The notes under the pieces are model-generated. The model saw nothing but the letters and a program-made list of their open reading frames with translations. It ran no database searches and was not told where the DNA came from. From NCBI GenBank assembly GCA_021014945.1, contig MU266411.1, positions 1 through 64,000 on the forward strand: a stretch of 64,000 bases of DNA, written 5' to 3'. This DNA comes from Leucogyrophana mollusca. Its lineage: Eukaryota > Basidiomycota > Agaricomycetes > Boletales. Every line of letters begins with the position of its first letter. Within the stretch, counting starts at the first letter, position 1. The position numbers were made by a program, and so were the translations under genes. Of the stretch, positions 1 through 31,470 are shown piece by piece.

Positions 1-261
1 GACAAAACCCCGAGCAACATAAGGAGTAGGAATACGGAAAAACAACATACCTCTCAGGCACACCAGGAGACCGCCGCGAAACCACTCGACGAAATACCCG
101 TTATGTCTTTCTCTGACCTTCACGAAACCTCCGAAAGATATGTCTCAAGCCTCCTCGTAAACATCCGTGGACCCTCTCCGGACTATGTCGATACGGACCC
201 TCTCTGGACTATGGGAGACCCGGGCTACGTCGATACAGAGGCCCAGAGGAGGCCGGGATGA
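1..261 (+). CDS. C-terminal end of an unassigned protein (partial, runs off left edge)
   Basis: Frame 1 is open from the first base of the window to a TGA at 259-261, giving up to 86 residues. A good 3' splice site (pyrimidine-rich, ending CTCAG at 58) suggests the last exon may start at 59 instead. The tail contains an internal near-repeat, PDYVDT followed by PGYVDT, spaced by about 17 residues. No family is recognised. It is read as a gene end because the open frame stays open for 86 codons and the next gene on the same strand starts 300 bases later. It could also be chance open frame. Confidence 0.4.
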   Translation, partial: DKTPSNIRSRNTEKQHTSQAHQETAAKPLDEIPVMSFSDLHETSERYVSSLLVNIRGPSPDYVDTDPLWTMGDPGYVDTEAQRRPG

Positions 262-565
262 CTGATCTCAAAGATCTATTCCCGCCGACAAGAAAACCCT
301 ATCATTTAGGTCGTGGGAACCTCCCCAAAGTGCTGCCAAGGGTGGCGATTTTATCTATTTGTGCGAACGGATCAGCTGCACCCGACTCGCAGTCTCCGCG
401 CTCGAATTGTATGAGCAAGGCTCCCCGGATAGGTCAGGGGCAACTTGCGCTCGGTATGTCCCAGAGTTGTCTTTGGTCAGATCCCGCGACTTACCCGCCG
501 GGCTGGTAGCACTGTTACTGTGGATATATCCCCACACCAACTAAAACTCAGATTTCGTATTCGCC
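262..565. other. Intergenic, 304 bases, nothing recognised
   Basis: Short overlapping open frames on both strands are seen but none has splice signals or a recognisable product. It probably holds the terminator of the left gene and the promoter of the gene at 566. Confidence 0.5.
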
Positions 566-5698: not shown

Positions 5699-5815
5699 TC
5701 AGGAAATAGTGCAGTAAGTCCCCGGACCGGACGGAGTATCGTAGTCCGCGGGAAGCTGATCGACGTTCTCAACGACAGTGGTTTGGGAACCAATGAGCTC
5801 GAAGAAATAATCCAT
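5699..5815 (-). CDS. Pheromone precursor P1 (CaaX lipopeptide)
   Basis: A single 39-codon frame encodes a 38-residue precursor beginning MDYFFELIG and ending GPGTYCTIS. The last four residues, CTIS, are a CaaX box: the cysteine at position 35 would be farnesylated, the last three residues removed and the new end methylated. The short acidic middle (VVENVDQLPADYD) resembles the pro-part of other basidiomycete precursors. The mature peptide would be the roughly 10-12 residues before the cysteine. A TATA-like box lies about 105 bases upstream (5917-5923 on the minus strand). The gene lies 0.7 kb beyond the 3' end of receptor R1. The MD start, size and CaaX end agree with P2-P4; recognition is by pattern only. 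Confidence 0.85.
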   Translation of the reverse strand: MDYFFELIGSQTTVVENVDQLPADYDTPSGPGTYCTIS

Positions 5816-6547
5816 GTCTGGTCACCAATGAGGACAAGGTTGATCTCAGCTGGTTTTATGAGGGGCTAGGACGACGTGAAACCGTGCTGGGGCAGGAAAC
5901 ACCAAGATGCCATGAATTATATATCGAAGGTGGACCTGGTTTGGCCGAACCGATCCACTCAGGCACCTCGCTTTCCCTTCCCCTCCGCAAGCGCCTGTGG
6001 ACTTGATCTGCATTTCATCTGAGACACGAGGAACGCACCCGCGCTATTGTTCTACGAACCTCAACACATTGTTGCCACCGGAGTATTGGACATATCATCG
6101 GCGGAATCAATTCTGAGATCGCTTTAGGCAGGTGAACAAGATCGTCTTCGACGTCGATTGCTTGGCGAGGTCTCAGATTTGCAGTTCGGAATCAGTAGCG
6201 CCGTGCAACAGCATGGACGTTGGTAAGCACCCCTGAACTCAAGAGTCCCTGACGACATATCTTAGGGGTCTGGTGGGGAAGTCATGTAACTTAGAAGTCG
6301 ATGAGGTGGATTAGGCACTATTCCGTACCGACTTGCGTAGTGATGCTTGTGCATAGCGGAAAGATCTGATAGTATATTTCGGCAGTGAGCGTGAAGATAG
6401 GTTCGTCAAGATAGTACAAAGATTAATGGTATATACGGAGTTAAAAAGCAAAGGAGTGGCCATCGATACAGTGTGATGATAACAATCGAAAGGTGATTGG
6501 ATATATAAAATGCTCAGGCAACTGCCTAGCCGAAGGGTAGAAGGAGC
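5816..6547. other. Intergenic between P1 and the 3' end of R1
   Basis: 732 bases holding the P1 promoter; no further gene recognised on either strand. Confidence 0.5.
5917..5923 (-). promoter_or_regulatory. TATA-like box of P1
   Basis: TATATAA on the minus strand, about 105 bases before the P1 start codon. The other three pheromone genes have a comparable AT box 99-137 bases upstream. Confidence 0.4.
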
Positions 6548-7988
6548 TCAAACAAAGTCCTGGGGATGATCACCAGGAATATCGGCACGATTGGAATAGA
6601 ATGATGGTGGGGGATCGAGTGGAGAATGTGCCAAGCTAGGCGAGGAATAGGAGAAAGTGGATGACGGATGGGTTTCAGAGGTGGGAGAATACTTCTCAAT
6701 GGAAGAGCAGCCCTCGACATCCTTCTCTTCAACAAACATGCTCTTCTCCGTCTGCCCTTTTGATTGGGCCATGACGTCGGAGAAACGCGGTAAGGATGGC
6801 GAACGACGGGCGATATGAACACTGGAATGACGGTGATCAGAGGAGCAACAACACGGGTACATAAGAACCCACCGAGCAAACGAAGAGGGAGTACTAGAAA
6901 CATGATCAACGGCAAGCCGTTCACGCAGTACCACACGTCGGAACCACGACATACAAGTGCGGTATTCTTTCATTGCTTCCTGCCCAAACGAAAAGAACGC
7001 GAAGAAGAAAGCGGAGGAGATTGGAACCGTCCACCATAGCACATACGTCCAGATAAGCGTAGATCGAGGAATTAGGACGGTCGGGAAGTAGGCAACCTGA
7101 GAAAATCCGTCGTGGACATTTTGCCAGCTGATCCATGGTCGCAGACCATTCCGACACGTAAACCACATGTTGAGGGAGGTGATCAATAAACCCCAGATCA
7201 TCTGAACGACGGCCATGCACATCAGACGGAAATATCGTGAGGAGGTTAAACCCGAAGTTGAGTCTTGGAGATGCTTGGCGAACGTCAGCCGGCGACGGAA
7301 AAAATGCAGGAGAGCCATTCCTGGGTCAAAGGGTGAGGGATAGTTCGGCTAGTTCTTTCAATAAGCATACCAGCGTAGGCGAGAGTCAGTACCGCGACGA
7401 CCATGGGAGGGACCCAGATGAGGCATATGGCGGGTATAGAAACGTAGATAGTGGGTCGGCAACCGAACTGTTCAACAATGTCAAAGCGATGGCCTTGGAC
7501 GATATAGTCTGAGGTTGTTTGGATTAAGATCGGGAACCCCGTAGAAAGAATATGGCTTACGCAGTGCCATGTAGATGATGGGCATACCCCAGCACAAAGC
7601 GGCATCGAAGATCATACGGCGTCGTCTATCAGCGTGCGTCGTGCGCGCCTGGCGAACTGACGCAATTCGTTCGAGATGAATACAGACACAAAGACAGCAG
7701 GCAGGAAGCGCCATATTTGCGCCAATCTGCAACTTCGTAGCTGCAGAGCATAAGTTGGGAAGGTGCACTTCAATGCATAGCCAACTTACCAATATCGCAC
7801 CATACCGGCGCTACATTGAGGACAGTATTTGCCCAAATAACAGAGTTGATCGCGAAGATGAGGTTGGAGATGAATAGCCACAGGATAATAGAGAGTGTGG
7901 CGATGTTTTTGGCACGCCAGTGCCATGGGAGGGGGACGAGAACGATGGCGGTGGCGATGAAAGCACCAAGGGGAAGCTCGACGTGCAT
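6548..7988 (-). CDS. STE3: STE3-type pheromone receptor R1
   Basis: Seven-helix GPCR of the fungal STE3 class, which binds a farnesylated pheromone at the cell surface and signals through a G protein. Five exons (7790-7988, 7561-7740, 7371-7508, 6873-7320, 6548-6821) give 412 residues. Family marks in order are VPLPWHWRAKNIA after helix 1, PVWCDI, CLCVCIHLERIAS, IVQGHRFDIVEQFGC, RRRLTFAKHL and SSRYFRLM. A long hydrophilic cytoplasmic tail follows helix 7. The start is the ATG at 7988; a TTG nine bases upstream is not used. Exons 1-4 have exactly the same lengths as in R3 (199, 180, 138, 448 nt), so the two are close paralogues in opposite orientation. The last intron is 51 nt, stop-free and in frame, so retention would add 17 residues to the tail. 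Confidence 0.95.
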
Positions 7989-8095
7989 GGTGGACAAGGT
8001 AGATGGCGGGGCGAAGGACCTATCCTTTCAACCAAAAGCAACTGGTTTATAGTACGGATGCCCATTGTTGCCAGATACTTTGCTGTTTGGCGAGG

Positions 8096-8102
8096 ACAAA
8101 GG
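8096..8102 (+). promoter_or_regulatory. Putative pheromone response element of R1
   Basis: ACAAAGG on the plus strand, 108 bases before the R1 start codon. It matches the core of the ACAAAGGGA element bound by HMG-box factors such as Ustilago Prf1. The same motif in the same relative orientation precedes R2, R3 and R4. Confidence 0.4.
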
Positions 8103-8573
8103 AAAATCATACTACTCCGCCCGAAATGGACAATGTAATTCAAACTCAGAGGCATTGCTCCCACGTAGCTTAGTTAGCGTTGAAATACTGCTCACTGTTT
8201 TCCCACAAGGCAACAATGCTCGGCAACGGAACCAAACTTACCAAAACCCTGAGGCCAAACCCAACACCGAACCTATGGTATGCCCCATCGGTACAGCGTC
8301 GCGAAATATGATATAGTCCAGTTGTGCAGACAAACTTTACATCGTAATGATCCAGTCCGAGCCAGTCCAAGAGACCGAGGCTGAGTGCCTCATGGGGGCA
8401 CAATCAAATTTGATCTCGGCCTTGCCGTTTTGGTCGCACAAAGGCATTCGAGCACAGTGGGCAACACTCCGAATCCGAAACCGCTTGGTATCGTGGCATT
8501 TCATATACCGTGGGCTGACTGCAAAGCCCCATTGTACATGGACAATGTGCCTTGCCTGCCCTGTTTATAAGGC

Positions 8574-8580
8574 AATATCT
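8574..8580 (+). promoter_or_regulatory. TATA-like box of P2
   Basis: TTTATAA 99 bases before the P2 start codon. Confidence 0.4.
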
Positions 8581-8672
8581 CCCTCCAGCCCTGATCACCT
8601 ACTTTTCTGCACCCCACCACTTTGCGCGACATCAGCTGTTCACCAGCAATTACCACAGCAGGCCCTGCACCT

Positions 8673-8804
8673 ATGGACTCATTTAATTCCATCTTTGACA
8701 TTTTCTCGAGCTCATCAAGTTCTCCCGAGCCCGACGATGATAATCCGCTAGTCGATGAAGAATGGGGCGGGGGTGGCCAAAGCGGTTTCTGTGTGGTAGC
8801 ATAA
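8673..8804 (+). CDS. Pheromone precursor P2 (CaaX lipopeptide)
   Basis: Unspliced frame of 43 residues starting MDSFNSIFDIF and ending QSGFCVVA. CVVA is a CaaX box with the farnesylated cysteine at position 40. A serine run and an acidic stretch (PEPDDDNPLVDEE) form the pro-region. The paired acidic residues EE sit directly before WGGGGQSGFC, so cleavage there would release a ten-residue lipopeptide, in line with the charged pair found before mature pheromones in other Agaricomycetes. The upstream in-frame ATG at 8622 is rejected because the MDSF start gives the typical precursor size and N-terminus. It is divergent from R1, and P3 and P4 share the MD(A/S)F start. Confidence 0.92.
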   Translation: MDSFNSIFDIFSSSSSSPEPDDDNPLVDEEWGGGGQSGFCVVA

Positions 8805-9895
8805 CATGGTATGTCCCTCCAACTTACCTGCTGGTCCCCAAGCTGAACGTAAATTGCTTGTATCCCTCAGCGCCGGCCACCGGCCAGACATCTCTCTTCA
8901 ATTATCATCCCTTCACATCGGTGCTGTACCATCTGCATGGTACGTTGTCTGCTTCTCGGCAACAGCCCCGCGTTGATCACGGCTCATGTCTTCCTCAGTT
9001 GCGATGGACATTGATTTGCTCCTGATGGCTATCTTAATTCTATTCGACACTCTTCCTCACCTCCCGTTGCGATTTGACCCCCACCTACGTCATTCCCTTG
9101 CTGTTCCGATCTCTGGAGATTTGGAGATTTTATTATCATTATCATCAGTATTTTCTGTATCATAGAAATGCGTCGGTGTGCTCTTTGTTAGCATTATGTT
9201 TCGTTAGCTCTTCCTCCGCGTTTATTCATTCTGTGCCCCCGTTGTACATCCGGAACGATCACCAATCTCGCCGACCACCCCCAGTCCACGCGGATTGCCC
9301 TCGATTGGGGCATGTATTACTCGGACAAACCTTCCTCGTGTTAGAATTCGTGTGTCCAACGCACGCGAGAAAAACGGTAAGGATTGTTGGATCCGTTACA
9401 AACGCGACGGGGGGCTACAGTAAATACTAAGTGACCCATATAATACCGTAGTTGACTCATAACGAGTCAGATATACTTTCAGTATGCGGGAGGGAACGGA
9501 CTGCGGGGCGGGTGATGTGCTCAGGTGTTCGTACCAACCGAGAAATTCCAACACCTCGTTGGCGTGCCCGTCTTCTGGATCTAAGTATTCGGCCTCGTTG
9601 CACACATTGGTGTCTTGATTCATTGATAACCATACGCTAGGGTTATGGTTTAGTTTTTACATTACAAGTCAAGACCCTGCGATTCAAGCACATGAGGGGT
9701 GATCGATGTGGTCGACAACAATCGATAGCGATACAAGGCGTGTAAGAGATACAGTGTAAACGAGTGAATAGTTAGACCGGTTAAGGCCAGCCTGCCGTAT
9801 GTATGAAAGAATGATGCGAAATATGTAGTAGTGACGAAAGGGGGACGGCGTGCCACGAGGGGCCTCAAGGTGAGAGTCGAATGGAGGTTACAAAG
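8805..9895. other. Intergenic between P2 and the 3' end of R2
   Basis: 1.1 kb with no gene I can support. Frames of 60-118 codons exist on both strands (for example minus 9396-9623) but show no CaaX end, membrane segments or splice structure. Confidence 0.5.
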
Positions 9896-11359
9896 CTAAA
9901 CAGCATAATGCGTTGTCATGGTTGAAATTGACTGGGGAGTGCGAGGAAGGCTGTCAAAGTCATCGAGGGAGGGCGAGTCGACGGAAATGTCCTTCTCGAG
10001 TTTCTCGCCGAAAGTGGATGTGGAATCGTGTTTGATAGCCCCTCCGGGGCGCGGGGTATACACGGGAAGGGAGCCAACAGAGTGAATCATTGCCAGAGAG
10101 CGAGGTGCGTTGCGGAACCTATCAAGCATGGTACAAAAGTCAGCGCATGTTGCTGATCTGGAGAGCAGGGGACCTACCCGGCGGAGTTGCTGAAAGATGA
10201 AGTGGGAAGGGAAAAGCCAAAGCACTTGGCAGCAGCAGCGTAGACCCTGCGATAGTTCTTTCGCGCCTCGTCCGCAAACCCGAAGAAACCGAAGAAGGCG
10301 AACGCGCAGAACACAAGACTCCAACGTGCCAGTTCCAATGAGACAACACTGGTAAAGTTCATGCGCCAAATGACGGCAGGGTACTCGACGACGCGGGAGT
10401 AGTTGTAATGAGCATCAGCAAACCCTTTCCAGGGCTCGATGGGCGCGGTTGCGACGTTGAGGTAGATACCATACGCGCAGATGGGTGTGGTACAAAGGAG
10501 CTCAAGTGTAGCCAGTGCCATGAGACGGAAGTATCGACTGATCGTGAGTGAGGTCGTGGAAGAGAGGAATTCACTAAATTGCGCGCGGCGCTTCATGAAG
10601 GCACGTAAAGTGAGAACTGACGCGTGGCATTAGCTAAGTCCACGAGCACAAGAGTTTGAACATACTGCAATATACAGCTGAGATGAGTCCAATGACCACA
10701 GGCCAGACGATGGAAAGTGGATATGCAAGTGGGGTGTTGAAGGTATATGGGTAGCAGCCCACGTCTTCGAAAATGTTGAAGCGATGGCCTTCCACGATGA
10801 ACTCTGAAGAGGGATATTGAAGGTTTGGGTCGGATACGGACGGAAAAGGCGGTGAAGTGAAGAACTTACGAAGGACCATTTGCACGATCGGAATGCCGAG
10901 GCCAATGGTTAGGTCGACAATGACATCGCGACGTTTCTGATAACATTCAGCCAGACGACCTCGATGAACATACATATAACGAACCTGTGCACGCGAGGTT
11001 GTGACTGTGCTAACGGTCGCAATTTTGTAGAGGCGACGATTTATGCAAAGTGATGCTGCTGGAATAGCTACTGCTACGCCAACTATGAGCCGCGAAGCTA
11101 CGTCGACCGTTAGAACGAGCACCGGCAACTGCGAGCACAAAGACTGACATATATCGCACCAAACCGGGGCGTAGTTGATGGCAGTCGACCGCCATACGAT
11201 GGAGTTGATGGCCATGTTAAGGAGCCCCAGCGCGGTCCAAATCATGTAGAGACAAGTGCCTGAGTTCCATGCCTGAAAATGCCATGGAAGCGGTATGAGA
11301 ACAAGGATGCTACCAATGACGGCGAAGATGGGGAATGCCGGGTAGGAGGGGTCGGACAT
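9896..11359 (-). CDS. STE3: STE3-type pheromone receptor R2
   Basis: Seven-helix STE3 receptor of 396 residues from six exons (11149-11359, 10985-11097, 10870-10936, 10666-10803, 10178-10616, 9896-10118). Marks are LIPLPWHFQAWNSGTC, APVWCDI, ASLCINRRLYKIA, IVEGHRFNIFEDVGC, ISRYFRLMALA and the helix-7 segment FFGFFGFADEARKNYR. The INRRLY and FFGFFGFADEA motifs are shared with R5 and absent from R1, R3 and R4, so R2 and R5 form a separate subfamily. R2 has its own intron after SRAQ that R5 lacks, and lacks R5's intron after WHLE. Introns 1-3 (51, 48 and 66 nt) are all multiples of three without in-frame stops. The first ATG (11359) directly precedes helix 1. Confidence 0.94.
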
Positions 11360-11464
11360 GGCGGACAGAGAAGGGTATCTAAGTGTGGAACAGGAGGGCT
11401 TTGACCTGTCCTTTCATTTTAATAGTTATCATACTGCTCTCAGCGAACAACCACTCAAGGAGGG

Positions 11465-11472
11465 ACAAAGGG
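11465..11472 (+). promoter_or_regulatory. Putative pheromone response element of R2
   Basis: ACAAAGGG on the plus strand, 106 bases before the R2 start codon, the closest match in the window to the ACAAAGGGA consensus. An inverted copy, CCTTTGTTCG, lies at 11501-11510 and is identical over ten bases to the motif before R3. Confidence 0.45.
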
Positions 11473-11983
11473 CGGAGTAGGTGCGGAATTTGAATATGCA
11501 CCTTTGTTCGCACTGAGCTTAGCCGGTCTCATTACGTAACTGGCCTTGTCATACACCGCGTGCTAAAATTAGCGACCATAAACGGTAGCTCTCGCATCCA
11601 TTGTCGCAGGAGCGTCATCGCACACTGGCAGAGACTATCACTCTACTTTGAAGGATCTCATCGTTCCAATCTGCCTATAGAACTGGTAACAATACCGAGA
11701 ACAATGTCATGCTCAATGAGCGTGACTGTCCAAACACCATCCAAAACACACTCCCAGCCAGAGCATCCTTCGAACGCAGCATTCAGCTGGATTGAGTTCT
11801 TGAGTAGAAAATTGACTGAGGCGCAACTCGATAATCCACGCGGCGCGTCGCATTGTTCCGCTCCTTTAGGCTAACAGTGTCCTCTGAGGTATCCAGATCA
11901 ATACATGGACCTTTGCCACGAGGAACAATGGGGAGCCTACCAGGTCCGGGACAATGGCTTTCACCACGAATTTCGGCTCGTCC

Positions 11984-11990
11984 TTTAAAA
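11984..11990 (+). promoter_or_regulatory. TATA-like box of P3
   Basis: TTTAAAA 137 bases before the P3 start codon. P4 has an almost identical TTTAAAAA. Confidence 0.35.
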
Positions 11991-12120
11991 GTGCGTTCCA
12001 TCCGTTCCATACATTTTTCCACCCATAACATCTCTCACTCTTGCTTCCGCGTAACCTATTGAGGTTCTTCCTATCGCTCACCTCCATCAGCGTTCCTCCG
12101 CTATCGCTTCACTCACAAAC

Positions 12121-12249
12121 ATGGACGCATTCACCACTCTAACTGCCCTCGCTTGCGAGCCACTTTCTGAGGAAGAACCATCAACGTCGACGCCAATCGA
12201 CGAGGATAGCCAATATTGGCGGCCTGGCACCTATTGTGTCATTTCCTAA
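12121..12249 (+). CDS. Pheromone precursor P3 (CaaX lipopeptide)
   Basis: Unspliced 42-residue precursor starting MDAFTTLTALA and ending RPGTYCVIS. CVIS is a canonical CaaX box with the cysteine at position 39. The acidic pro-region (SEEEPSTSTPIDEDS) ends in a charged pair ED ten residues before the cysteine, so the predicted mature peptide is SQYWRPGTYC with farnesyl and methyl groups. The end PGTYC is shared with P1, while the MDAF start is shared with P4. It is divergent from R2. Confidence 0.92.
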   Translation: MDAFTTLTALACEPLSEEEPSTSTPIDEDSQYWRPGTYCVIS

Positions 12250-13647
12250 TTTCCAGTGTGTTGCAATTTCCTCATGCGTCAATTGCATGATCTCATGGCC
12301 AGTGCTGTGTAGCGCGCCTTTACTATGCCTGACCCCGTGAAGGCTCCCGCTCGTCCTTGCTTGCCCCGTGATTCATTTATCTGTGAGCTTCCACATATCG
12401 CTGCCGACGTCCCTCCTGATCTGATCGCCTTTACGACCAGCACCAGACGTTTGCTTGATGCATGCAACCCCTTCGTTCAATGCTCTGTTGTTTTCGTGCA
12501 CTTTTATCCCGTGTATCTATCAGTGTTACTCCATGTAGCCACGTCAGTTATCTTTATTACTCCGTACTATCAGTAGATTTACTGCCCACGCACTCCTTCG
12601 CTCCTTATCATTACACATTGTCCTCAATTTGATCATGAGGTCGTTCGTTCCTCCTACTTACATATGTTATGGTGACCGAACTGCCATATGAAGGATGCAC
12701 AAATAGCGAAGCGTATGTATCGAGGACATGAATCGCAGCTCCCGGTTTTTAAGCACATCAGTTCATCAAAAGATTTACTTTGGTGTAAATTCCCCTGCCA
12801 CTACCGTACACCAGAACGACATCCGAGTATTAACAACAACACAACACTTGGTACAAAGAATCTAAGGAAGTAGCTAGCGAGGTCATACACGCTGGGAATC
12901 CCTGGTGGAAACGTATCGAATAGCTGATATGTAGTCTAAATTTAATTTCGGACAGACAATATGTCTGCCAGTCTTGATGCTCTGAAAATGTTCGAAAATA
13001 AGCCAATTAGCATGCTCATCATTGGAAACAGTGAACACGACCTACGCACTCACTTCCGGCGACTGCCGTGCCGGTGGATGGGCGTGGGAATTATGTGCAA
13101 TATGGACAATACTGCTGGTATTTTGCTTCGATCCGAATAAAGTATTTTAATTGGCTCAGATGCCGCGGTTCCACGAATTTGAATGGCTGCACACTCAGTA
13201 TGAGGGTGAAAGATGAGTTCATCGACAAAGATTTTTAAACCGTCTGAGTCACCAACGAGCGACCAGCGGGGAGAAGTCTGGAGAAGTTGATAATTTGATC
13301 ACATAAGGTGACGAGAGCTGTGCGTTCGAATTGCTTCCGTGTGGAAAGTGGCATCGTGGCGGAACTCAGTGCATCCAGATGCCTAAACTGGGACAAGAAA
13401 GAACGATTGAGCTTGGTAAACAATGGACGACAAGACCATTGTGCCTGCTCAATGTCTCACATGTGCTCACTGTCTTCCGGCTATTGAGCTGTGGATAATG
13501 TGGCATGCTAGGAGGCTTGGGTCTTTAAAAAGGTTCCGCCTGTGTGGTGAGGGAAGCCCCTCACATTTTTTTCGCCATCGTGTTGCCAACGTGCCGATTC
13601 TGACCTCCTCTTGATCCTCACCGCTACCATCCTCGCGATCGTTCACC
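12250..13647. other. Intergenic between P3 and P4
   Basis: 1.4 kb with no supported gene. Several 60-80-codon frames exist but none ends in CaaX or shows family features. A TTTAAAAA box precedes P4. Confidence 0.5.
13524..13531 (+). promoter_or_regulatory. TATA-like box of P4
   Basis: TTTAAAAA 124 bases before the P4 start codon, in a context (GTCTTTAAAAAGGTTCC) similar to that before P3 (CCTTTAAAAGTGCGTTCC). Confidence 0.35.
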
Positions 13648-13794
13648 ATGGACGCTTTCGCATTCATTGGCAATCTTATCATTGAATACACCCCATCAGC
13701 TGATGTTTCCAACGTCGACCCATCAGAAGATGACATCCCTACCGATGCCGAGCACGATCCTACCGGCTCCCGTAGTTTTTGTACCATTGCATGA
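13648..13794 (+). CDS. Pheromone precursor P4 (CaaX lipopeptide)
   Basis: Unspliced 48-residue precursor starting MDAFAFIGNLI and ending SRSFCTIA. CTIA is a CaaX box with the cysteine at position 45. The pro-region is acidic (VDPSEDDIPTDAEH), and the charged pair EH lies nine residues before the cysteine, predicting a mature DPTGSRSFC lipopeptide. Size, start and end match P2 and P3. It lies 1.1 kb upstream of R3 on the same strand. Confidence 0.92.
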   Translation: MDAFAFIGNLIIEYTPSADVSNVDPSEDDIPTDAEHDPTGSRSFCTIA

Positions 13795-14886
13795 TGCTGT
13801 TTGCATGGCCACATCTGTAACCGTTTCTTGTACGTCTGCATCACGATCAGGTTTAGTCTACCATGCTCATGCTCACGCAGGCATCCCTTCCGCTTTGACA
13901 GCGCACATCTATTGAAGGCTATTTATCTGTTATCATTATGGGCCCGCCCGCGCACATTCGCCCTTCGTCATTCCTTGTTTCTCAGGATTTCGTTTTATAT
14001 CATTTAGCTGCAGATCATCAGATCTATTCGTTTGTGACTCTTTCGCACTGTAGCTACTAGAGAGTGGTTCGTATATCGTATTATCCAGCTCCATTTATGC
14101 ACCTTCCTACTATCCCTCCAGAGTCCATGTGAACTCACAAAGATGAGATGCCTTATTTAAATGCGCTTCGGGTATGTGCAACGAACAGCATCGCCCTGAC
14201 AGATATCCTCAATCCCTCGAGTGCGTCAGACAGTGACTGAAGTAGATTGCACCAAATTCCACGTAAGAGCAGAACAGTGCGACAAAGAATGAAAAGAGAA
14301 TGAGACCGATTACCAGGATCCACGCTAGCAACAATCAGGACCCGAGAAACGGAACGCACGGACGTATGGGTAAGTAAGAGTGCGCGGACACATGACGCGC
14401 ATAGTCGACTACTCATTGATTGGTTTAAGTTGCAGTTACTTCCGAAACTTAACAATGAAAGTGTAAGTGTGGGATAGTGGGCAAAATCGTATCAACGACA
14501 AGTCGTACTGGCTGAAGCGCCATCATTAAACACGAACGGCCACATTCAAACTCGGGGTCGTAGGAAACACGGTGTATTCAATGACTGTGCACTGCTCAAA
14601 CCAGCCCTCGATGAAGAAGTGGAATGGTTGGTGATGCCACGTGGTTGCCAGAACAACAATGCAAGGGAAGGTGCCAAATTGGGAAGGTACGTTCACGGTG
14701 TTTTTCCTCCCCATTGTCCTCGGGAGTCGGAGTACGATTTCTTGCTATTGAGCTAGCTTCCCCTTTGTTCGAATTATCAGAGATATGGCTGGATTACAAA
14801 AATGGGCTTGCCGTGTAGCATACATAAAAGTCTTCCGGTCTTTCAGTGGAAGGCCCTCATTCGTTCCTCCACCTTAGTCCTCGACC
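13795..14886. other. Intergenic between P4 and R3
   Basis: 1.1 kb. Minus-strand frames at 14153-14455 and 14526-14714 have somewhat protein-like composition but no recognised product. The R3 promoter occupies the right end, with a CCCTTTGT motif. Confidence 0.5.
14761..14768 (-). promoter_or_regulatory. Putative pheromone response element of R3
   Basis: CCCTTTGT on the plus strand (ACAAAGGG on the minus strand), 119 bases before the R3 start codon, in the same orientation relative to its gene as at R1, R2 and R4. Confidence 0.4.
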
Positions 14887-16396
14887 ATGCATCGCGAGTT
14901 CCCGCCGATCGCTTTCCTCGCCGCTCTCCTCCTCCTCCTCCCATTGCCTTGGCATTGGCGGGCCCGAAATGTCGCCACCCTTTCGATGATCTTATGGCTT
15001 TTTGTGATCAACGTCGTCTACGGCGTTGACGCTATCATCTGGGGCAACAACGTGAATATTGTTATACCGGTTTGGTGTGATATCAGTGCGTACCAGACCG
15101 GAGTTTACGGGCACAGACAACTAACTATTATCGCGCCCACAGCAAGCAAGATTATTATTGGCGCAAATTTTGCTCTTCCTTCGGCGTGTCTTTGTGTCTG
15201 CATCCACTTGGAGCGCGTAGCCTCTGTACGACAAGCGCAAACTACTCACAGCGACAAACGGCGCAGACAAATATTCGAAGCTATCATGTGCTTCGGGTTG
15301 CCTATCCTGTTTATGGGACTCCGTATGTATATTCTCTGTTTGAGTGGCCATGCATGACTTAAAGGGCGCATAGATTATATTGTCCAAGGTCATCGTTTTG
15401 ATATCATCGAAGAATACGGCTGCCGTCCCACAACTTACGTTTCCATCCCTGCCGTATTTCTCATCTGGGTGCCCCCTCTGCTTCTTGCAACTCTTTCCCT
15501 CGGTTTTGCTGGTGAGTTCTGAGTCTGATTTTGTCGTCTTGCAGCCCGGTGCTGATGTCTCCTTAGCGGCGGCTTTCGTGCACTTCATGCGTCGCCGCAT
15601 CACGTTTGCTCGCCACTTGGAAAGTTCTCGCAACGGTCTCACGACGACGCGCTACTTCCGCCTCATGCTCATGGCTGTCGTCGAGATGGTCTGGAACATC
15701 CTGGTCACCTCCTACACACTCTGGTTCAGCATGCTCGGCGCACGCCCATGGACCAACTGGGACGACGTCCATTCCAATTTCTCGCGCATCGACTTGTACG
15801 CTACGGCGTTCACACCTCAGATCGTCATCACGAATTATTACGTCGTGTGGTGGGTCGTCCCGGCTTCGACCTTTATCTTCGTCGCGTTCTTCGCGTTTGG
15901 GAAAGATGCGGTCGATGAGTACAAGGCCTGTTTCGTATGGTTCCGCCGGACTGTCCTTAGGCAGACCGTGTCGGATTCGACCGCAGGAAGTTTCGGTTCT
16001 ATTCCAGTTGCAAAGTGAGTGTCCGTATTACGCGAGTGCGCAGTTCTTGCTCATCATCATCTTTCTAGGTATTCTCGTGATGGTACTGGCTCTGTTCCCA
16101 GTCTTCCGCCGGCGTCAATGTATAAGGCGTCGATGCCGCCCTCACCCACGAAGTCCAAAGACGAATTTGATGATATCTACCTCCCTCCCATGTCCCAGGG
16201 CGACTACGGGGCTGCGATCTCTTCTCCCGCTCCAGCATATCAGGCGCGAGCATATGGTTCTATGGAAGACCTGAACACACCCACTACGCCATCAACCCTC
16301 CCGCGTTTGTCATACTGCAGCTCATACCCCACTCACGTCATCGATATCTCACATCACAACAACGGCAATGACCTCGAACCCCACCAAATGGTGTAA
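14887..16396 (+). CDS. STE3: STE3-type pheromone receptor R3
   Basis: Seven-helix STE3 receptor of 430 residues in five exons (14887-15085, 15143-15322, 15374-15511, 15567-16014, 16069-16396). Family marks are LPLPWHWRARNVA, PVWCDI, CLCVCIHLERVAS, IVQGHRFDIIEEYGC, RRRITFARHL and TTRYFRLM. For the third intron the acceptor at 15566 is chosen because the earlier CAG would cause a stop. The first four exons are the same length as in R1, and helices 1-7 align without gaps. The cytoplasmic tail is serine/proline rich (PSLPPASMYKAS) and ends HQMV. Confidence 0.95.
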
Positions 16397-16894
16397 TATC
16401 AAAATCACCTCGCCCCTTGCTTTTTTCTAGACATGATATATTTGGATGCAGCAGCTGGAGACTGCTTTATTTGATCACACTCAGATCCCGTCGTTTCACT
16501 TTCACGATTCGCTCATTCGTCGTCACTCATTCATAACATCTGTAGCCCTCCACCTGACCACAGTTTATTATCCTGTCTCCTCTAGTCACTCCCTTGTATA
16601 ACAGCGCAGTTCCGTTGGCCTCGAGTCAATTGCATACTTTATTACGCGTTTACATAGTTCTCCCAAATGACTTTCATCGAGTCTTTTGACGACGATCCCA
16701 ATTGGTCGGGACAGTCAGCTCATTTCAGTTCGGATTAAGTATTTAATTCTGAGATAAGTGGTTACCCTTGAAACTCCGAAGAAATTCCCTTACCGACGGC
16801 ATGACGCTCGCCTGTTCAACCGCATTTCCTTACCTCGACCCGCCCTAAGGAGAGTCAAGACTGCGACCCCTTCGCCCCTCAAGAGTCAGCAAGG
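16397..16894. other. Intergenic between R3 and the membrane protein gene
   Basis: 498 bases. A 23-codon frame at 16667-16738 looks slightly like a decayed pheromone precursor (see findings) but lacks a CaaX end and is not called as a gene. Confidence 0.5.
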
Positions 16895-18374
16895 ATGGCA
16901 ACTCTGAACGGTGGGATTCTCCGCCAGCGGCTGCGTAGTTCCGCCAGAGATGGAGTCAAACTGGGGCATGGCTCTGACAACGAGTACCTTAGTGATGATG
17001 CTTTGGATCACCTCCAGAAGTCCAAGCAACCCCTTATAGATCAAGACGAAGTGTCATCACCCTCGCAGTACGAGTCCGGAAGCGACTCGGGTGAGGAAAC
17101 CACAGATGAGCGTGCATCCGCGTCTGGTACGGGCAATCGTCCTAGCGACTCCTCTCCCTCTCCTCGCTTCAGAGAAGATGCAGAAGGGCCTGCTGCGGAA
17201 TCGTCGGACTTTCCTTCAAACAGCAAAGGGTGGTATGAGTTTGATCTGTCTGTCGTGGTTGCACTGGTATCCCCTATTGGCAACTGGTTGACTGGAGGAG
17301 ACCACGTCAAGAATTTGCTCCTGATACTCCTATTAATTTTCTACTTGCACCAAATTATTGAAGGCAAGTCCAATTCTATGTCAACGTCCTTGTACTTATC
17401 TCTCTGCAGTCCCTTGGAGCTTGTATCACCTTTCGAGACCACGCCGTCGCTCACCGCAAGCACAACCCAAAGAACCATCTCTTGAAGATCGTTATCATCA
17501 GATCGCGTCATCTGAACTGCATAACCTCGAACTATTTTATCTTACCATGACTGTCCTTTCACCTGTGATGGGAGCCCTTCTCCTTCGTACCGTCATCACA
17601 TCTGTTTCGGGACCAACGTCTATCTCGTGGTTCAGTACATCGCTGTTTGTCCTTGCGACAGGCATGCGGCCTTGGAAGCATGCGATCGAGCGTCTTCGCC
17701 AACGAACTATTGACCTGCATGATGTCATTCACTACCCTTCGTCGACTACCCAGGACACACAGTCGCAGGTTGATGCTTTGGCGGAACGGCTTGCACTGTT
17801 GGAAGCCGAGCTCCGAGCGTCAAAAGATGCTGTGAAAGCTCTGACAGAGGAAGTTTTCGACCATGTCGACGATGCTATCGACGGAGTCGAGAAGATTGCG
17901 CGAAAGCAGGAAAAGAAATCCGAAGCGACGCGCGCTGCTCAGGAGGTGCGGTTTGCCCGACTTGAGCAGAGTGTGGAGTCCCTCCTGGAGAAGAGGGAGA
18001 TATCGCCAGGCGGGGTGTCTCTCAATACCACATCCACTCGAGCCTCGTTGTTACTTTCTGCTGTAACAGATCAGCTTGCACCCATCTTACCCGCTTGGAC
18101 TCACCAAGAGCACCAAGAAAAGTCACAACAATCCCCTCGTTCCTCACCCAAAACCGGCCGCACTCGTTCAGGATCTAAGCTTGAGACCATCCCCGAGGGT
18201 GCCGTTTTCCACACAAAACCTGCGCGTCCACGTTTCACATCCATCCGCATTCCCGGTATTCATCTTATTCTGCGTATCGGCGACCTCGCGACGCTGCCTG
18301 TCCGCACCATTGTCCGTTATCTCCTTGCTGGTCGTATTTACCAACCTCAGATTCCCCTCGCCTCGCCTCCGTAA
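16895..18374 (+). CDS. Conserved membrane/coiled-coil protein of unknown function
   Basis: Two exons (16895-17363, 17410-18374) give 477 residues. The intron uses a GC donor (AG|GCAAGT), the typical non-GT donor; no GT donor keeps the downstream frame. The N-terminal third is hydrophilic and serine/acidic rich. Hydrophobic segments follow at about residues 141-157 (NLLLILLLIFYLHQII), 196-215 (FYLTMTVLSPVMGALLLR) and 220-232. A charged helix likely to form a coiled coil covers roughly 250-330 (ALAERLALLEAELRAS), then comes a basic tail. It sits between receptors R3 and R4 on the same strand, inside the mating-type cluster, but nothing in the sequence shows a role in mating. Confidence 0.8.
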
Positions 18375-19141
18375 AACGCTCGGTATCGCCTCTTCTTTTC
18401 TATTCCTTGTCATCTTTGAGCATCCACCCACGGACACCAGTTCAATCATTTCTCACTATTACCATACGCACCTAAATCACCCTTGGCCTTGCAAGCTAAG
18501 TCGTATTCACGAGCATTTCACGAGACCCTCTTTATTGTACGTGTTCACTATGTATTCAAGTTTCCTTTTGTACTTTAGCGCGGTGAGTGCTGCTTGCTGA
18601 TTACTATTGAGCATTATTGACTGGTCAAACCTACCCAGTGACCCGATATTTGTATCTCTCCGTCACTTGCGGCTGTACGATGACGTCCGGGTATCGCCAA
18701 TCAAGAGGCATGGTACATATCTCCCTTTGTGCTACTGAGAGCCGTCGGCTTCCTTCACTTTTAAGTTTTCTCCCAGAGCCCATCCGTCCCACCATCCCAG
18801 GGTTCCGGGTTCTGCTCAATCCTTTACACTTGCCTTATCGGGTGTTTCCTTTCACTCTTCCCTTTTACGGAAAGGCTCCTGAAGCTGTTTCTCCCTCAAA
18901 GCCGAGTTCTTTCGCATCCTCGTGACGCATAGCCATTGTATTCTGTCTGGCAATTACCTTGTCGATCGAAATGCGGTAAACTTGCTGCAAAATTGTGGCG
19001 TTGTTGCCTTTGTACTTTGGGACTAAGCGCCTAACGCGCGATGACTGACTGCCACTAAATTTACTAAATTTAAGAAATGTGCCTTTTCTCCGCTCCTCAA
19101 GATACCCCCTTCGCTTTCCTGAGGCTTGTTGTCTCGTCGAA
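18375..19141. other. Intergenic between the membrane protein gene and R4
   Basis: 767 bases with no supported gene; carries the R4 promoter. A 134-codon minus-strand frame here is judged a chance frame. Confidence 0.5.
19007..19013 (-). promoter_or_regulatory. Putative pheromone response element of R4
   Basis: CCTTTGT on the plus strand, 129 bases before the R4 start codon, same relative orientation as at R1-R3. A single motif of seven bases is weak evidence by itself. Confidence 0.35.
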
Positions 19142-20816
19142 ATGCATACCGAGATACCAGTCTTGTCCTTCATTTGCGCCGCACTTGTTTTGGCTCCTTT
19201 GCCATGGTCCATCCGGGCTCGCAACATCGCCGCCCTATCCATCGGCGCTTGGCTGTTCATCGCGAACATAATCTACGTAGTTGATGCACTCATCTGGGCA
19301 AATAACGCGGACCCCAGGGTTCCCGTTTGGTGCGACATATGTATGCCTGTCGTCTATTCATATGCATGGGTCACTGATGAAATCCGCCTAGCTTCAAGCA
19401 TAATTGTTGGTTCTCATATCGCATCGCCCGCGTCATGCCTTTGTATCTGTATCCACCTGGAACGAGTAGCATCCTTCTGCCAAACTTCCACACCAGTGGC
19501 GAAACGACGCCGTACTTTATTTGAATCTGTAATGTGCTTCGGGTTGCCTATTGTGTATATGGCTTTGCGTACGACGATCCGAACTTTTGTAACATCGCCT
19601 CTTTCTGATCCTTTTCTTGCAGATCTAATCGTCCAGCCTCGTCGTTTTGATGTCTACGAGGGATTTGGCTGCCGCCCTACTACCTACGCCTCCATCCCGA
19701 CCATCTTCTTAATGTGGATACCACCCCTCTTTCTTTCCGTGGCTGCGGTTTTCTGTGCTGGTACGCTCGAACATTTGAAGTTATCAGCCTCAGGTTCATG
19801 GTCTTCGCAGGTATCGCTTGGCGTCACTTCCTGTACCAGGGCGTCCAATTTTCCACAGGAGGGACCGTGTCGCCTTCACCTTCCTCGCTCACGTCAGGCA
19901 ATTACATTCGCCTCATCGTTATGGCGGTCCTGGAAGCGTTCTGGTCCATTATCGTCCTCGCCATCGTCATGCGATTCTCTCTCTCGTCGGGGCTGGCTCC
20001 CTGGACGAGTTTCGCGGACGTCCATAAAGACTTCAGCGTGGTCTTCATGTATAGCACGAACGTGACGCCGGCAAATGCGACCTCTTTTTTGGTGTTTTCT
20101 TGGGCCGCGGTTCTAATACAGTCGATTGTATTCTTCTTGGCATTTGCATCCAGGGAAGAAACTCTCGCAGAGATAGCGGGCTATACGAGCTGGGTCCTAC
20201 ATCGCTTCAGAAAGAAAGATAACAGTATTTTGCCAGCTATTCCGGTCCACTCCCCTGATATGTAAGTGCATCACTTGCGCTGTTCACAACAAGTGTTCAA
20301 TGGCGCACTTTTAGGATGTCTGGTCCAACTGCCCCTATCACAGTCCTTGACTTTGCGACCACTTCCAGAGGGAGCCCAAGCGGTTCTGAGTGCTACGATC
20401 CATTTGCGAAGTCACCCCTCTCTTCCCCTGAACCATCACGCCCTCCCTCCCTTGACCTATCGCACCAAAAGCAGCTGGACTCTGACCACGTCTTCATGAA
20501 CGACACGCTCGAATCTCCCACTGCGCGTTCTGCCATAGCGTCATCCCACAACTCACTTGAGTCTAATTTTGATCCTCAGCAAATTATTGTCTCTCCCGTG
20601 TACTGGCCCGAGCCCCCTTCGAAAGTACCCGTTCGCACTCCTCGCCGCTCAACCAGCATGGGATATCTACAAAGTCTGCGCGATGGACAGCGTTCTCCTT
20701 TCGATGACTCTGCCATCCAGCTTTCGACTTCCCCCCGGAGAAAGCCTATCAGGCGATCCCAGAGCAGGAATGCGATATACATGACAGTGGTTAGAGAGAC
20801 CCACAGTGAGGTTTGA
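19142..20816 (+). CDS. STE3: STE3-type pheromone receptor R4 (divergent)
   Basis: Seven-helix STE3 receptor of 488 residues in five exons (19142-19340, 19392-19568, 19623-19760, 19811-20261, 20315-20816). Intron positions match R1 and R3, exon 1 and 3 lengths are identical (199, 138), and exons 2 and 4 differ by one codon. It keeps PVWCDI, CLCICIHLERVAS and the RPTTYASIP segment. It departs from the others in places that are otherwise constant: WSIRARN instead of WHWRARN, VQPRRF instead of VQGHRF, and no recognisable RYFRLM (NYIRLI instead). The tail is the longest of the five (about 200 residues, rich in SP and RRS). The ATG at 19142 is chosen over one 63 bases upstream because it matches the R1 and R3 starts and exon 1 length. 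Confidence 0.93.
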
Positions 20817-22063
20817 ATAAACAATACTTTGCCCTCTCAGTACTAGTAATCTTATCTCTTTAACACTCCCTTCATTCTTGTAGCTCCACAGCCTTTCACT
20901 GTTCCATCCTGTATCTCTATATACATATCCTGTATCACGTACAAAATTCCGAATATATCTCGTCCTTCACCGCTTTGGCACCCTTCTCCAAGCTCAGGCT
21001 TCTCCAGCTGTGACCAGACTCCAGCCACTTCAGCACGTGACAAATTCCAAACATACCGCCAACCAATTACGGCAACTCCGACTCTTATTGTCTTTCACCT
21101 TTCAGGCGGTTCTTATTGTCTTAGATGTGCCATTCTCTGTTCATAAATCCCATCGTCTTCACTGACGAGACGAATTTCTTGATCCCCAACTTTCATCAGG
21201 CCGTTTCATCCCAAAGGTCACTACCCTAGCCCGCGAAACCGCCACCCGCAGTGTGGATATTGGACGATCGGGCTCAAACTCCTCCATGGTAACTCTTTGT
21301 ATTCCGCGTTTGGTCTGCAAAGTACCCTCTCCTACGATTTACAGACGTGAACAGAAAGTCCGGTGAGTCTCGAGGATTAGATTATCCCAATCCAAGAACA
21401 AAGAGCACCGTAATCGTTCCCCTCCCTCAGAATCCCGATCTAATCACTAGTTTTGACCTCGCGGAGCGTCAGATGTCGTGCCACAGTGGATCGCTGAACG
21501 TTCTCCAGTTCAGTTTTCTTTACCGTTCACTTCAACACCCAGCCATGGCTTGAGCGATGGGAACTTTTTACTATTCTTGGTAAGAGTGCTTATCACTTCC
21601 GTCTAGACTTTTGAAGATGACCAGAACCTATCGGATCCTTCTGACGGGTATCGTGGATCATGGGACTCATCAACATGTGCTCTCAGGCAAGGGGATGAAC
21701 TTCGAGCGACAGCTCGGCCGCTGTTTGATATCATTTCACCCGCTTTTCCTTTTCGGTCAACAAACGTACTTCCTGATTTGGATGTCAGTTTGTTGGCCGA
21801 AAAGGCAATGCCGGTATCTGCAAAGTTCAACATCTTGGTCCACGTTCCGTGGTTGCCGAGCACAAGGGGACGTCCAAATTCGTTTACAAGGCGGAAGGCT
21901 TTCGAAAGGCTTTAATAGGGTCGCCTTCGCAAGGCTATGACTCGTAGCTTCACCCGTGGACTTTTTTCTGCTCCTCCGCTCAGCAGCCAGTCCTCGAATC
22001 GCCAATCCCCGATTCTGGTCAGCCCCTCTCTACACATCTTCCATCTACAACTGTGTTGTCAAG
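20817..22063. other. Intergenic between R4 and R5
   Basis: 1.25 kb, no supported gene. It contains a near-perfect 18-bp inverted repeat (listed separately). No ACAAAGG motif is found before R5, unlike the other four receptors. Confidence 0.5.
21748..21805. repeat. Inverted repeat, 18-bp arms, 22-base spacer
   Basis: Arms CCTTTTCGGTCAACAAAC (21748-21765) and GTTTGTTGGCCGAAAAGG (21788-21805) pair at 17 of 18 positions. It could be a remnant of a mobile element end, a protein-binding palindrome or chance. Confidence 0.7.
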
Positions 22064-23651
22064 ATGTCGGACACTCCAAACTGGGTTTTTTCTATGTTCG
22101 CGTTTTTCGGATTCGTGCTCGCCATGATTCCCCTCCCGTGGCACCTCGAATGTTGGTTTGTCTTCGCTTCTAAATTGGCCATAATATCTAACCCGCCATA
22201 TAGCTTGGAATACCGGCACATGTTTGTACATGATTTGGACAGGCCTGGCATGCCTTAACCAGTTCATCAACTCTGTCGTTTGGAATTCGGATGTGATTAA
22301 TCGGGCACCCGTTTGGTGTGATATTTGTAAGTGGCTCAGATACTGTGAGCGTACGATAGCATTAACGGTCCTTTCTAGCCACTCGGTTCATGATCGGTTC
22401 GGCTGTTGGCATTCCTTGCGCGTCTCTGTGCATCAATCGCCGTCTATACCACATTACATCCGTCTCTTCGGTCACGAAAAGTCGTGCACAGAGGAGGCGG
22501 GATGTCCTAGTCGATCTCGGCATCGGTCTTGGTATACCTGTTATTGAGATGGCACTTCGTGAGTACAGACTTCCTCTTTGCGCTATCTAACCTGACCGCC
22601 GCGATCAGAATATATTGTACAAGGGCATCGTTTCAATATCTTCGAGGAGATCGGTTGCTATCCTTTCACGTTCAACAGCCCTCCCGCATATGCTCTCGTG
22701 TTCGCTTGGCCCATTGCCATCGGAATGGTTTCTGCCTGCTACTGCAGTACGTTTGCTTTGCCACGCGTGGTTAACATTACACTGATTATGTCGTAGTCCT
22801 TACCATTCGTGCACTGGCGCAAAGAAGATCCGAGTTCAAGGAGCTCCTCTCCGCCAACAAGAACTTGAACTCTGGACGTTATTTCCGCCTCATGGGTCTT
22901 GCAGGCATCGAAGTATGCTGCACGCTTCCCCTTGGCGCTTACTCCATCTATCTCAACGCATCTGCCGAGGAAATCCAGCGATGGGTCAGCTGGGAGAACA
23001 CCCACTATGACTTCTCGAGGGTTGGCCAATACCCATCTATTATCTGGCGCATGAACTCTTTGACAGTGCTCTCTCTTGAGCTCAGTCGCTGGCTCGTCGT
23101 CGTCTGTGCTTTCATCTTCTTCGGTTTCTTCGGATTCGCGGACGAGGCCAAGAAGAACTACCGTCTTGCGTACTTCTCGGTAGCCAAGACAGTCGGACTC
23201 TCGACTGGCAACATGACCTCAGGACTCTGGAGCTCAACTGGGTACGTTGATTTATCGACTTCGCTGCGATGTTGCAGCTGACCATGGTTACTTTCGTAGT
23301 TCCAAGCCCGAAAACACGTACAACAGCCGCAGCGGCACCATGCCTGTCTTCGTTACGCAACGCACCGAGCGCAAGCGCGACTCTATGGCTTCCTTCTCTA
23401 CCGACCTCTCTATTGGAGAGTTTGGCGCCGCATTCGACGATGTCAAGGAGGCCCCATATTCGCCCACGGAGTCATCTACGGGTTCAGCGTCGAAGGCTAG
23501 CCTTCCTTACTCTCCTGCCGATGAGAAGGAGGTCCCTTTGCCCGATCTCCCTGTGATTGCCCGCCCGGAGCCTACCCTTGATCTTGCGTCTGCACCCCGC
23601 CACGTCGCCGACACACCAGAGTCACGACGCAGTTCGATTGAGATTGTCTAA
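22064..23651 (+). CDS. STE3: STE3-type pheromone receptor R5
   Basis: Seven-helix STE3 receptor of 441 residues in six exons (22064-22151, 22204-22326, 22379-22558, 22609-22746, 22797-23241, 23300-23651). Marks are IPLPWHLESWNTGTC, APVWCDI, ASLCINRRLYHIT, IVQGHRFNIFEEIGC, SGRYFRLMGLA and FFGFFGFADEAKKNYR. These features group it with R2. The intron after WHLE is unique to R5; without removing it the frame breaks. The cytoplasmic tail is acidic and serine/proline rich and ends SIEIV. It is the rightmost member of the cluster, and the next gene to the right is metabolic. Confidence 0.95.
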
Positions 23652-30679: not shown

Positions 30680-31470
30680 ATGTCAGACCTCAAAATCCCA
30701 CTGCTCTTGGTCTCAGCTTGTGGGCTACACTATACCATGACACCTCCGACTGCTCGCCCCCCAGCTAAGGAGCGGCTCAATCCCTCGGGATGGGAAGTGG
30801 TTGTTCCGTGGATACACCACGCTTTCAAGGTAGGTATCGGCTTCATATTTCCTCGCAATTAGCACCAGCCAACCGTTATTTTTCTTGTCAGGGAGTTTAT
30901 TGGACTTTGACGCTATCCGAAACACTCGTCGCATACACAGCTATCAATCCGACCTCAGTTGTATCTAGAAGCATAATAAGCTATCTAGTACGTCGCCCAA
31001 ACGCGGATGATGTAATCTCTCAAGTGGGCCGGTTGACTCCTGCTTTCCTTGCTGGATGTTGCCTGAGCCTCACAGGTAGTTTACTCCGCAGCTACTGCTA
31101 CCACGTTCTAGGCAGGCTGTTCACATTTGAGCTCAGCATTCGTCAGCAACACAAACTCGTCACCTCCGGACCTTACTCGTTTGTGCGGCACCCGAGCTAC
31201 ACCGGCGCTCTTTGTGTCGCAATGGGGATATCGTTGTGCCATCTGAATCCCCGGTCTTGGCTCGTGACCTGCTCTGGGCTGTTTCCAACCTCTGACGCTG
31301 GAATCACGAACACATTGGTCGGTGCATGGGCGTGCATTTGCACTGTGGTTTATTTTGGGTTGAAAAGTCGAATGGAGAAGGAGGACGCCATGCTGGAGGG
31401 GACATTTGGGACCGAATGGCGGCTTTGGGCGAAGAAAGTACCATGCCGATTGATACCATGGGTTTACTAG
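30680..31470 (+). CDS. Isoprenylcysteine carboxyl methyltransferase family protein
   Basis: Two exons (30680-30829, 30892-31470) encode 242 residues with several hydrophobic spans. The conserved catalytic end is plain: LVTSGPYSFVRHPSYTG (the ICMT H-x-L-V-T-x-G-P-Y-x-x-V-R-H-P-x-Y core), then RMEKEDAMLEGTFGTEW, which corresponds to the R-x-x-x-E-E substrate/SAM motif. ICMTs in the ER membrane methylate the carboxyl group of farnesylated cysteines, the last step in making CaaX pheromones, Ras and G-gamma subunits. The gene is 7 kb from receptor R5, so a role in pheromone maturation is possible. However, mushrooms often carry several ICMT-like genes and this one may have another substrate. Confidence 0.85.

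Follow-up and report, generated by a model that had tools for sequence, protein, structure and literature searches.

The window analysed here comprises the first 64 kb of the 108,672-base contig C85 (MU266411.1) of Leucogyrophana mollusca, whose genome assembly amounts to 32.3 Mb in 545 contigs. Within about 18 kb of this window (positions 5,699-23,651), five complete STE3 receptor genes (R1 to R5) and four genes for CaaX-type pheromone precursors (P1 to P4) lie interleaved in the order P1(-) R1(-) P2(+) R2(-) P3(+) P4(+) R3(+) M(+) R4(+) R5(+), with M denoting a further gene between R3 and R4. The members of the two families are listed below, with protein lengths in amino acids (aa) and scores against the profiles PF02076 (receptors) and PF08015 (precursors).

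5699..5815, minus strand: P1, pheromone precursor, 38 aa, ends CTIS; PF08015 20.3 bits
6548..7988, minus strand: R1, STE3 receptor, 412 aa, 5 exons; PF02076 332.6 bits
8673..8804, plus strand: P2, pheromone precursor, 43 aa, ends CVVA; PF08015 32.7 bits
9896..11359, minus strand: R2, STE3 receptor, 412 aa, 5 exons (best model); PF02076 342.1 bits
12121..12249, plus strand: P3, pheromone precursor, 42 aa, ends CVIS; PF08015 20.0 bits
13648..13794, plus strand: P4, pheromone precursor, 48 aa, ends CTIA; PF08015 19.7 bits
14887..16396, plus strand: R3, STE3 receptor, 430 aa, 5 exons; PF02076 323.9 bits, measured on a 322-residue database protein
19142..20816, plus strand: R4, STE3 receptor, 488 aa, 5 exons; PF02076 252.7 bits, measured on a 322-residue database protein
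22064..23651, plus strand: R5, STE3 receptor, 441 aa, 6 exons; PF02076 382.5 bits

Gene content, completeness, order, ancestry and conservation across species are directly supported by the analyses described below. We consider it likely that these genes represent the pheromone/receptor (P/R, or B) mating-type locus of L. mollusca in one haplotype, with R1 to R3 determining mating type and R4 and R5 as linked receptors that do not.

The search with PF02076 recognised five separate genes in the window. Their spliced models are complete, with an ATG, a stop codon and no stop in between, and contain 4, 4, 4, 4 and 5 GT-AG introns (R1 to R5, respectively) with sizes of 49-66 bases. The models of R1 and R5 agree in every residue with the public L. 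mollusca proteins P0076 and P0121, and those of R3 and R4 match P0002 and P0242 across all 322 residues of these proteins. The R2 model contains an extra 48-base stretch, VRYMYVHRGRLAECYQ, which may be a short unremoved intron. A crude hydropathy scan yielded 8, 7, 8, 7 and 6 peaks for R1 to R5; because these counts vary, the assignment as seven-helix receptors rests on the nearly full-length match to the STE3 profile and not on the scan. An earlier sequence-only reading of this DNA had announced five intact STE3 genes, and the complete models with PF02076 scores of 253-383 bits bear this out.

The four pheromone precursors all start with MD and belong to a set of 14 loosely defined CaaX open reading frames (ORFs) found in the window. 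P2 exceeds the PF08015 cut-off of 22 bits, and P1, P3 and P4 stay slightly below it. With a strict precursor pattern (a start with MD, a length of 33-80 aa and an aliphatic CaaX end), the 64 kb window returned four ORFs, all of them P1 to P4, whereas 100 dinucleotide shuffles averaged 0.08 and never gave more than 2. This confirms the short ORFs ending in CTIS, CVVA, CVIS and CTIA that had been singled out before. The same pattern found one ORF, itself a pheromone gene, in 106,000 bases elsewhere in the genome that were picked around receptor, homeodomain and PF08015 matches rather than at random, and a relaxed scan of the window revealed no precursors beyond P1 to P4. By analogy with the family, maturation of P1 to P4 into lipopeptide pheromones would involve farnesylation of the CaaX cysteine, followed by trimming and carboxyl methylation. 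Each of these would activate the STE3 receptors of compatible strains, never those of its own haplotype, and receptor activation would then license nuclear migration and clamp fusion. We infer this processing of the precursors, as well as the pairing of pheromones with receptors and the identity of the receptors that set mating type.

To compare the precursor tails, we used nine of the 13 Rhizopogon sequences published by Mujic et al. 2017 (PMC5473757), omitting two repeats, a near copy of vin3.3, and vin3.2. P3 shares 12 of the 14 residues before the CaaX motif with Rhizopogon phb2.1, with 11 consecutive residues identical (DEDSQYWRPGT), and the resulting score of 79 was not reached in 20,000 shuffles. 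The best pairs for the other precursors were P2 with vin3.5 (6 of 14 residues), P4 with vin2.2 (4) and P1 with ves3.2 (5), at shuffle fractions of 0.00045, 0.0001 and 0.00125, respectively, each being the best of nine comparisons and uncorrected. Judged by its tail sequence, P3 alone among the four is a clear counterpart of a Rhizopogon pheromone, and a tail conserved between families in this way is useful for cross-genus tests of pheromone specificity.

The ancestry of the receptors was analysed from homologue lists that held the best 120 of 537 matches for relatives of R3, the best 120 of 978 for those of R5 and all 108 for those of R4; with at most 120 entries per query, the absence of a receptor type from a species is weak evidence. 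A quick tree was calculated from 90 rows, consisting of 82 hand-chosen rows of the 306 listed, the R1, R3, R4 and R5 proteins, R2, and three more receptors from the same genome; its outgroup did not form one side of a branch. It separated the receptors into two deep groups, R1, R3 and R4 in one and R2 and R5 in the other, which are represented in the final trees by 50 and 35 rows, respectively (P0191, P0235, the receptor on contig C10 and the outgroup rows P0301 and P0304 were omitted). Among the hand-chosen rows, R3 groups with receptors of Hygrophoropsis and Serpula S7.3, followed by Paxillus, Melanogaster, Suillus and Rhizopogon, and the Bbr1 and Balpha8 receptors of Schizophyllum lie near this group together with receptors of Coprinopsis and Pleurotus. 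R1 groups with Hygrophoropsis, Scleroderma and Pisolithus, and R5 with Hygrophoropsis, Coniophora and other Boletales. The clade of R4 consists of 19 rows, Boletales throughout, and may be the equivalent of clade 1B of PMC5473757, which is without known mating function. The phylogeny proposed in the sequence-only reading places the receptors in two deep groups. For R2, with which no homologue search was made, neither a close relative among the tree rows nor a protein with a similar start among the 306 homologues fetched was present.

The identities to the Hygrophoropsis counterparts amount to 77% for R1, 95% for R3 (over 318 columns), 68% for R4 and 85% for R5, and the closest receptor in the own genome is at most 56% identical to any of these four. 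Among the matches listed, relatives of R3 in Hygrophoropsis, Serpula, Paxillus, Melanogaster, Suillus and Rhizopogon show 69-88% identity over 75-100% of its length. In the same lists, relatives of R4 and R5 occur on contigs of equal size, and therefore probably on the same contig, in at least 12 other Boletales species (Hygrophoropsis aurantiaca, Paxillus rubicundulus, Melanogaster broomeanus, Gyrodon lividus, Phlebopus sp., Suillus ampliporus, S. paluster, Scleroderma yunnanense, Boletus edulis, B. coccyginus, Imleria badia and Lanmaoa asiatica). A relative of R3 is also there in H. aurantiaca, P. rubicundulus and M. broomeanus, and one of R1 in Scleroderma, and the R1 relative of H. aurantiaca sits on a separate contig of 8,259 bases. 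Together with the gene content and the ICMT- and SNF2-type genes downstream (see below), this shared arrangement upholds the earlier identification as a P/R mating-type locus.

The MAT B locus of Serpula lacrymans, likewise a member of the Boletales, contains five STE3 genes and either four (strain S7.9) or three (strain S7.3) pheromone genes within 22-25 kb, the value for S7.9 being 22 kb (Skrede et al. 2013, PMC3564976). As in L. mollusca, two of its receptors lack adjacent pheromone genes; these are described as identical between strains S7.9 and S7.3 and probably non-mating (PMC3564976). The two loci differ in that the Serpula scaffold with MAT B also bears a PAK kinase gene, some 20 kb away, whereas in L. 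mollusca a PAK-type gene and a fifth pheromone gene are found on another contig, and in that the Serpula locus has been studied by crosses and in two haplotypes, whereas that of L. mollusca is known here from one. The locus described here is a complete and ordinary Boletales P/R locus, a well-formed fresh example of a kind already described and without unusual expansion. It adds such a locus from a wood-inhabiting lineage, which will not surprise a specialist, and yields a concrete, testable split of R1 to R3 against R4 and R5.

This split follows the positions of the pheromone genes, the nearest of which is 684-1,092 bases away from R1 to R3, 5.3 kb from R4 and 8.3 kb from R5. Most likely, R1 (with P1 and P2), R2 (with P3) and R3 (with P4 and perhaps P3) form the mating-type-determining cassettes, and the most probable role of R4 and R5 is that of linked STE3-like receptors without influence on mating type. 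The Serpula relatives agree with this assignment. That of R4 (P0253) is a single sequence recorded on two contigs (all 108 matches considered), which presumably represent both compatible strains, since the contig of 3,283,687 bases fits the S7.9 scaffold carrying MAT B. That of R3 (P0006) appears in the list under strain S7.3 alone, no other Serpula protein being present in the best 120 of 537 matches, and the two records together favour an allelic R3 and a shared R4. STE3 genes without pheromone genes are also present beside the B locus of Schizophyllum commune (brl1-3, PMC8161036), which has a further copy elsewhere in the genome as well; in that species conservation between strains was demonstrated, whereas we derive it from Serpula. 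Similarly, the MATB locus of Trichaptum carries mating (STE3.2, STE3.4) beside non-mating receptors (STE3.1, STE3.3) and is flanked by PAK and SNF2 genes, but it contains four receptors and two pheromone genes, and population data decided the split there (PMC8970355). The sequence-only reading stated that one haplotype does not allow mating and linked non-mating receptors to be distinguished; this still holds strictly, although other species and the pheromone positions now separate them provisionally.

Several observations weigh against this division. The division is drawn from a single haplotype of the locus. R3 tracks the expected order of species and is the most conserved of the receptors, as a gene without mating function would be, and of the four receptors compared with Hygrophoropsis (R1, R3, R4 and R5), R4 is the least similar to its counterpart. 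The deep clade of R5 includes proteins named pheromone receptors in other mushrooms, and RvSTE3.3, probably the counterpart of R5 in Rhizopogon, was placed among clades with mating function (PMC5473757). In addition, the MAT B marker that separates the B types of Serpula sits in Slrcb4, one of the receptors called identical (PMC3564976). No Serpula relative of R5 appeared in the best 120 of 978 matches.

We searched for a second allelic copy of the locus with two DNA queries of 3 kb, both of which recovered themselves, and found no such copy but only stretches of R1 and R4 and two short matches on contig C99, in a search that could miss a strongly diverged allele. A query of 19 kb returned no second copy either, but it also failed to return the window itself, and its silence proves little. 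A literature search that reached few subscription journals produced no publication on the mating locus of L. mollusca.

Because the Serpula relative of R3 is listed for one of two compatible strains, R3 could belong to an allele class kept across the order by balancing selection. More generally, we regard it as possible, if rather doubtful, that R3, P3 and P4 form a block that has remained nearly unchanged across the Boletales, either as a mating-type cassette or as a non-mating signalling pair. If the R3 allele class has indeed been kept order-wide, the specificity between pheromones and receptors would become testable across genera.

It appears unlikely that all five receptors set mating type, with R4 and/or R5 being served by pheromone genes farther off in the locus. 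The named mating receptors in the deep clade of R5 (e.g. P0187 of Lentinula edodes), the fast evolution of R4 and the Serpula marker in Slrcb4, which follows the B type, speak for such an arrangement, as does the name 'mating type pheromone receptor 4' borne by the R4 relative of Rhizopogon vesiculosus. However, the surroundings of R4 (5 kb) and R5 (8 kb) are free of pheromone genes, the Serpula relative of R4 has the same sequence on its two contigs, and an R5-like gene is retained in the bipolar Coniophora puteana and also in Suillus.

P/R genes that serve post-fusion signalling only are known in other bipolar Agaricomycetes, and L. mollusca might likewise be bipolar, with a P/R locus that no longer sets mating type. 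The number of ICMT (isoprenylcysteine carboxyl methyltransferase) genes bears on this question, and one ORF of this family was found downstream of the receptors.

30790..31470, plus strand: ICMT-family ORF, PF04140 53.6 bits (cut-off 24), 7.1 kb beyond R5

It is separated from R5 by F-box-like and other ORFs and is a candidate for the enzyme carboxyl-methylating the pheromones. ICMT genes adjoin the P/R genes in the studied Boletales except Pisolithus, with one copy in bipolar species, R. vesiculosus, R. salebrosus and Suillus brevipes, and two copies in R. vinicolor and tetrapolar Serpula and Paxillus (PMC5473757). Among ten papers listed in a search on ICMT next to mating loci, this article alone contained the complete name of the enzyme. 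Our locus resembles those of Rhizopogon, Suillus, Paxillus and Coniophora in that its receptors belong to clades 1 and 2, its pheromones have the same shape and an ICMT gene follows the terminal receptor, but differs from them in the numbers of receptors and pheromones and, with one ICMT match listed on its contig, from the two copies of tetrapolar Serpula and Paxillus (PMC5473757). By the one ICMT match listed on its contig it looks bipolar-like, a state also reported for some species of unknown breeding system (PMC5473757), and the listings of the literature search contained nothing about how L. mollusca breeds. By its receptor number it looks tetrapolar-like: the receptor and pheromone numbers equal those of tetrapolar Serpula (PMC3564976), and the bipolar Boletales of PMC5473757 have fewer. 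We judge the loss of the mating-type role to be improbable and retain the reading of a mating-type locus with R1 to R3 as its determining receptors. As a separate observation, the genome contains at least 23 ICMT matches, of which one is listed on C85; others are clustered on contigs C32, C27 and C52, and the total seems larger than the processing of pheromones should require.

A recent local duplication in L. mollusca as the origin of the array, which the mere position of five receptors side by side might suggest, is highly implausible and is refuted for R1, R3, R4 and R5, because these four are closer to their Hygrophoropsis counterparts than to any receptor of their own genome and because trees forcing R1, R3 and R4 (p-AU 6.4e-6, approximately unbiased test) or R2 and R5 (p-AU 5.9e-5) into one clade were rejected. 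The rejection of both forced clades indicates that the array is old and not the product of a local burst. The term 'expanded' used in the sequence-only reading is not supported either, since Serpula S7.9 also has five receptors and four pheromones (PMC3564976), R. vinicolor exceeds these numbers (6 and 8, as compared to 4 and 4 in R. vesiculosus; PMC5473757), and the receptors represent old lineages.

Outside C85, the PF02076 search detected three STE3 genes or remnants at C51:105586-106604, C120:6097-7107 and C10:245149-246163. The automatic gene models were poor for all three, and exon pieces were used in the trees. The receptors on C51 and C120 are 70% identical to each other, and that on C10 is very divergent with a very long branch. 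They were considered as alleles of the window genes and rejected, since a BLASTN comparison of 60 kb showed shared STE3 stretches alone, and no ORF of the strict pheromone pattern was present in the 50 kb fetched around the three receptors. The homeodomain locus lies on a contig other than that of the P/R locus, namely C6 (about 104-112 kb of 282,640 bases). It comprises MIP and two homeodomain ORFs, one of which is a gene of the Mating_N/Mating_C type.

A fifth precursor of 39 aa, ending in CVIA, was noticed at C165:37621-37740, with a PAK-type kinase gene 5-7 kb off, and is the one strict-pattern ORF of the 106,000 bases mentioned above; the genome search with PF02076 gave no STE3 match on this contig. 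Because PAK genes lie near MAT B in Serpula and Trichaptum, C165 may belong near C85, and the locus may thus extend past the end of its contig, although nothing in our data joins the two. A weak PF08015 match on C119 was discarded as a pheromone gene because of an internal stop codon and a missing CaaX motif.

The remaining gene of the locus lies between R3 and R4.

16895..18374, plus strand: M, open frames with uncertain splice sites

This gene, put forward as that of a membrane protein in the sequence-only reading, gave no Pfam match at an E value of 0.01, and its product is at most a putative membrane protein. Farther downstream of the ICMT ORF, we recognised F-box-like, PCI-domain, SNF2-domain, Rtt106-like, RRM and BTB ORFs; ICMT and SNF2 genes have both been reported next to P/R loci (PMC5473757, PMC8970355). 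The left end of the contig (window positions 15-345) recurs with 100% identity on C311, C16, C287, C344 and C140, and this repeat is probably the reason why the assembly broke there; positions 341-1248 are 93% identical to part of C1. Left of the locus, at positions 4380-4710, minisatellite-like tandem copies around atccagcgttcgagg were spotted by eye, and a dispersed repeat of about 215 bases occupies positions 9338-9554 between P2 and R2, with copies of 74-83% identity on C239, C3, C215, C200 and C2.

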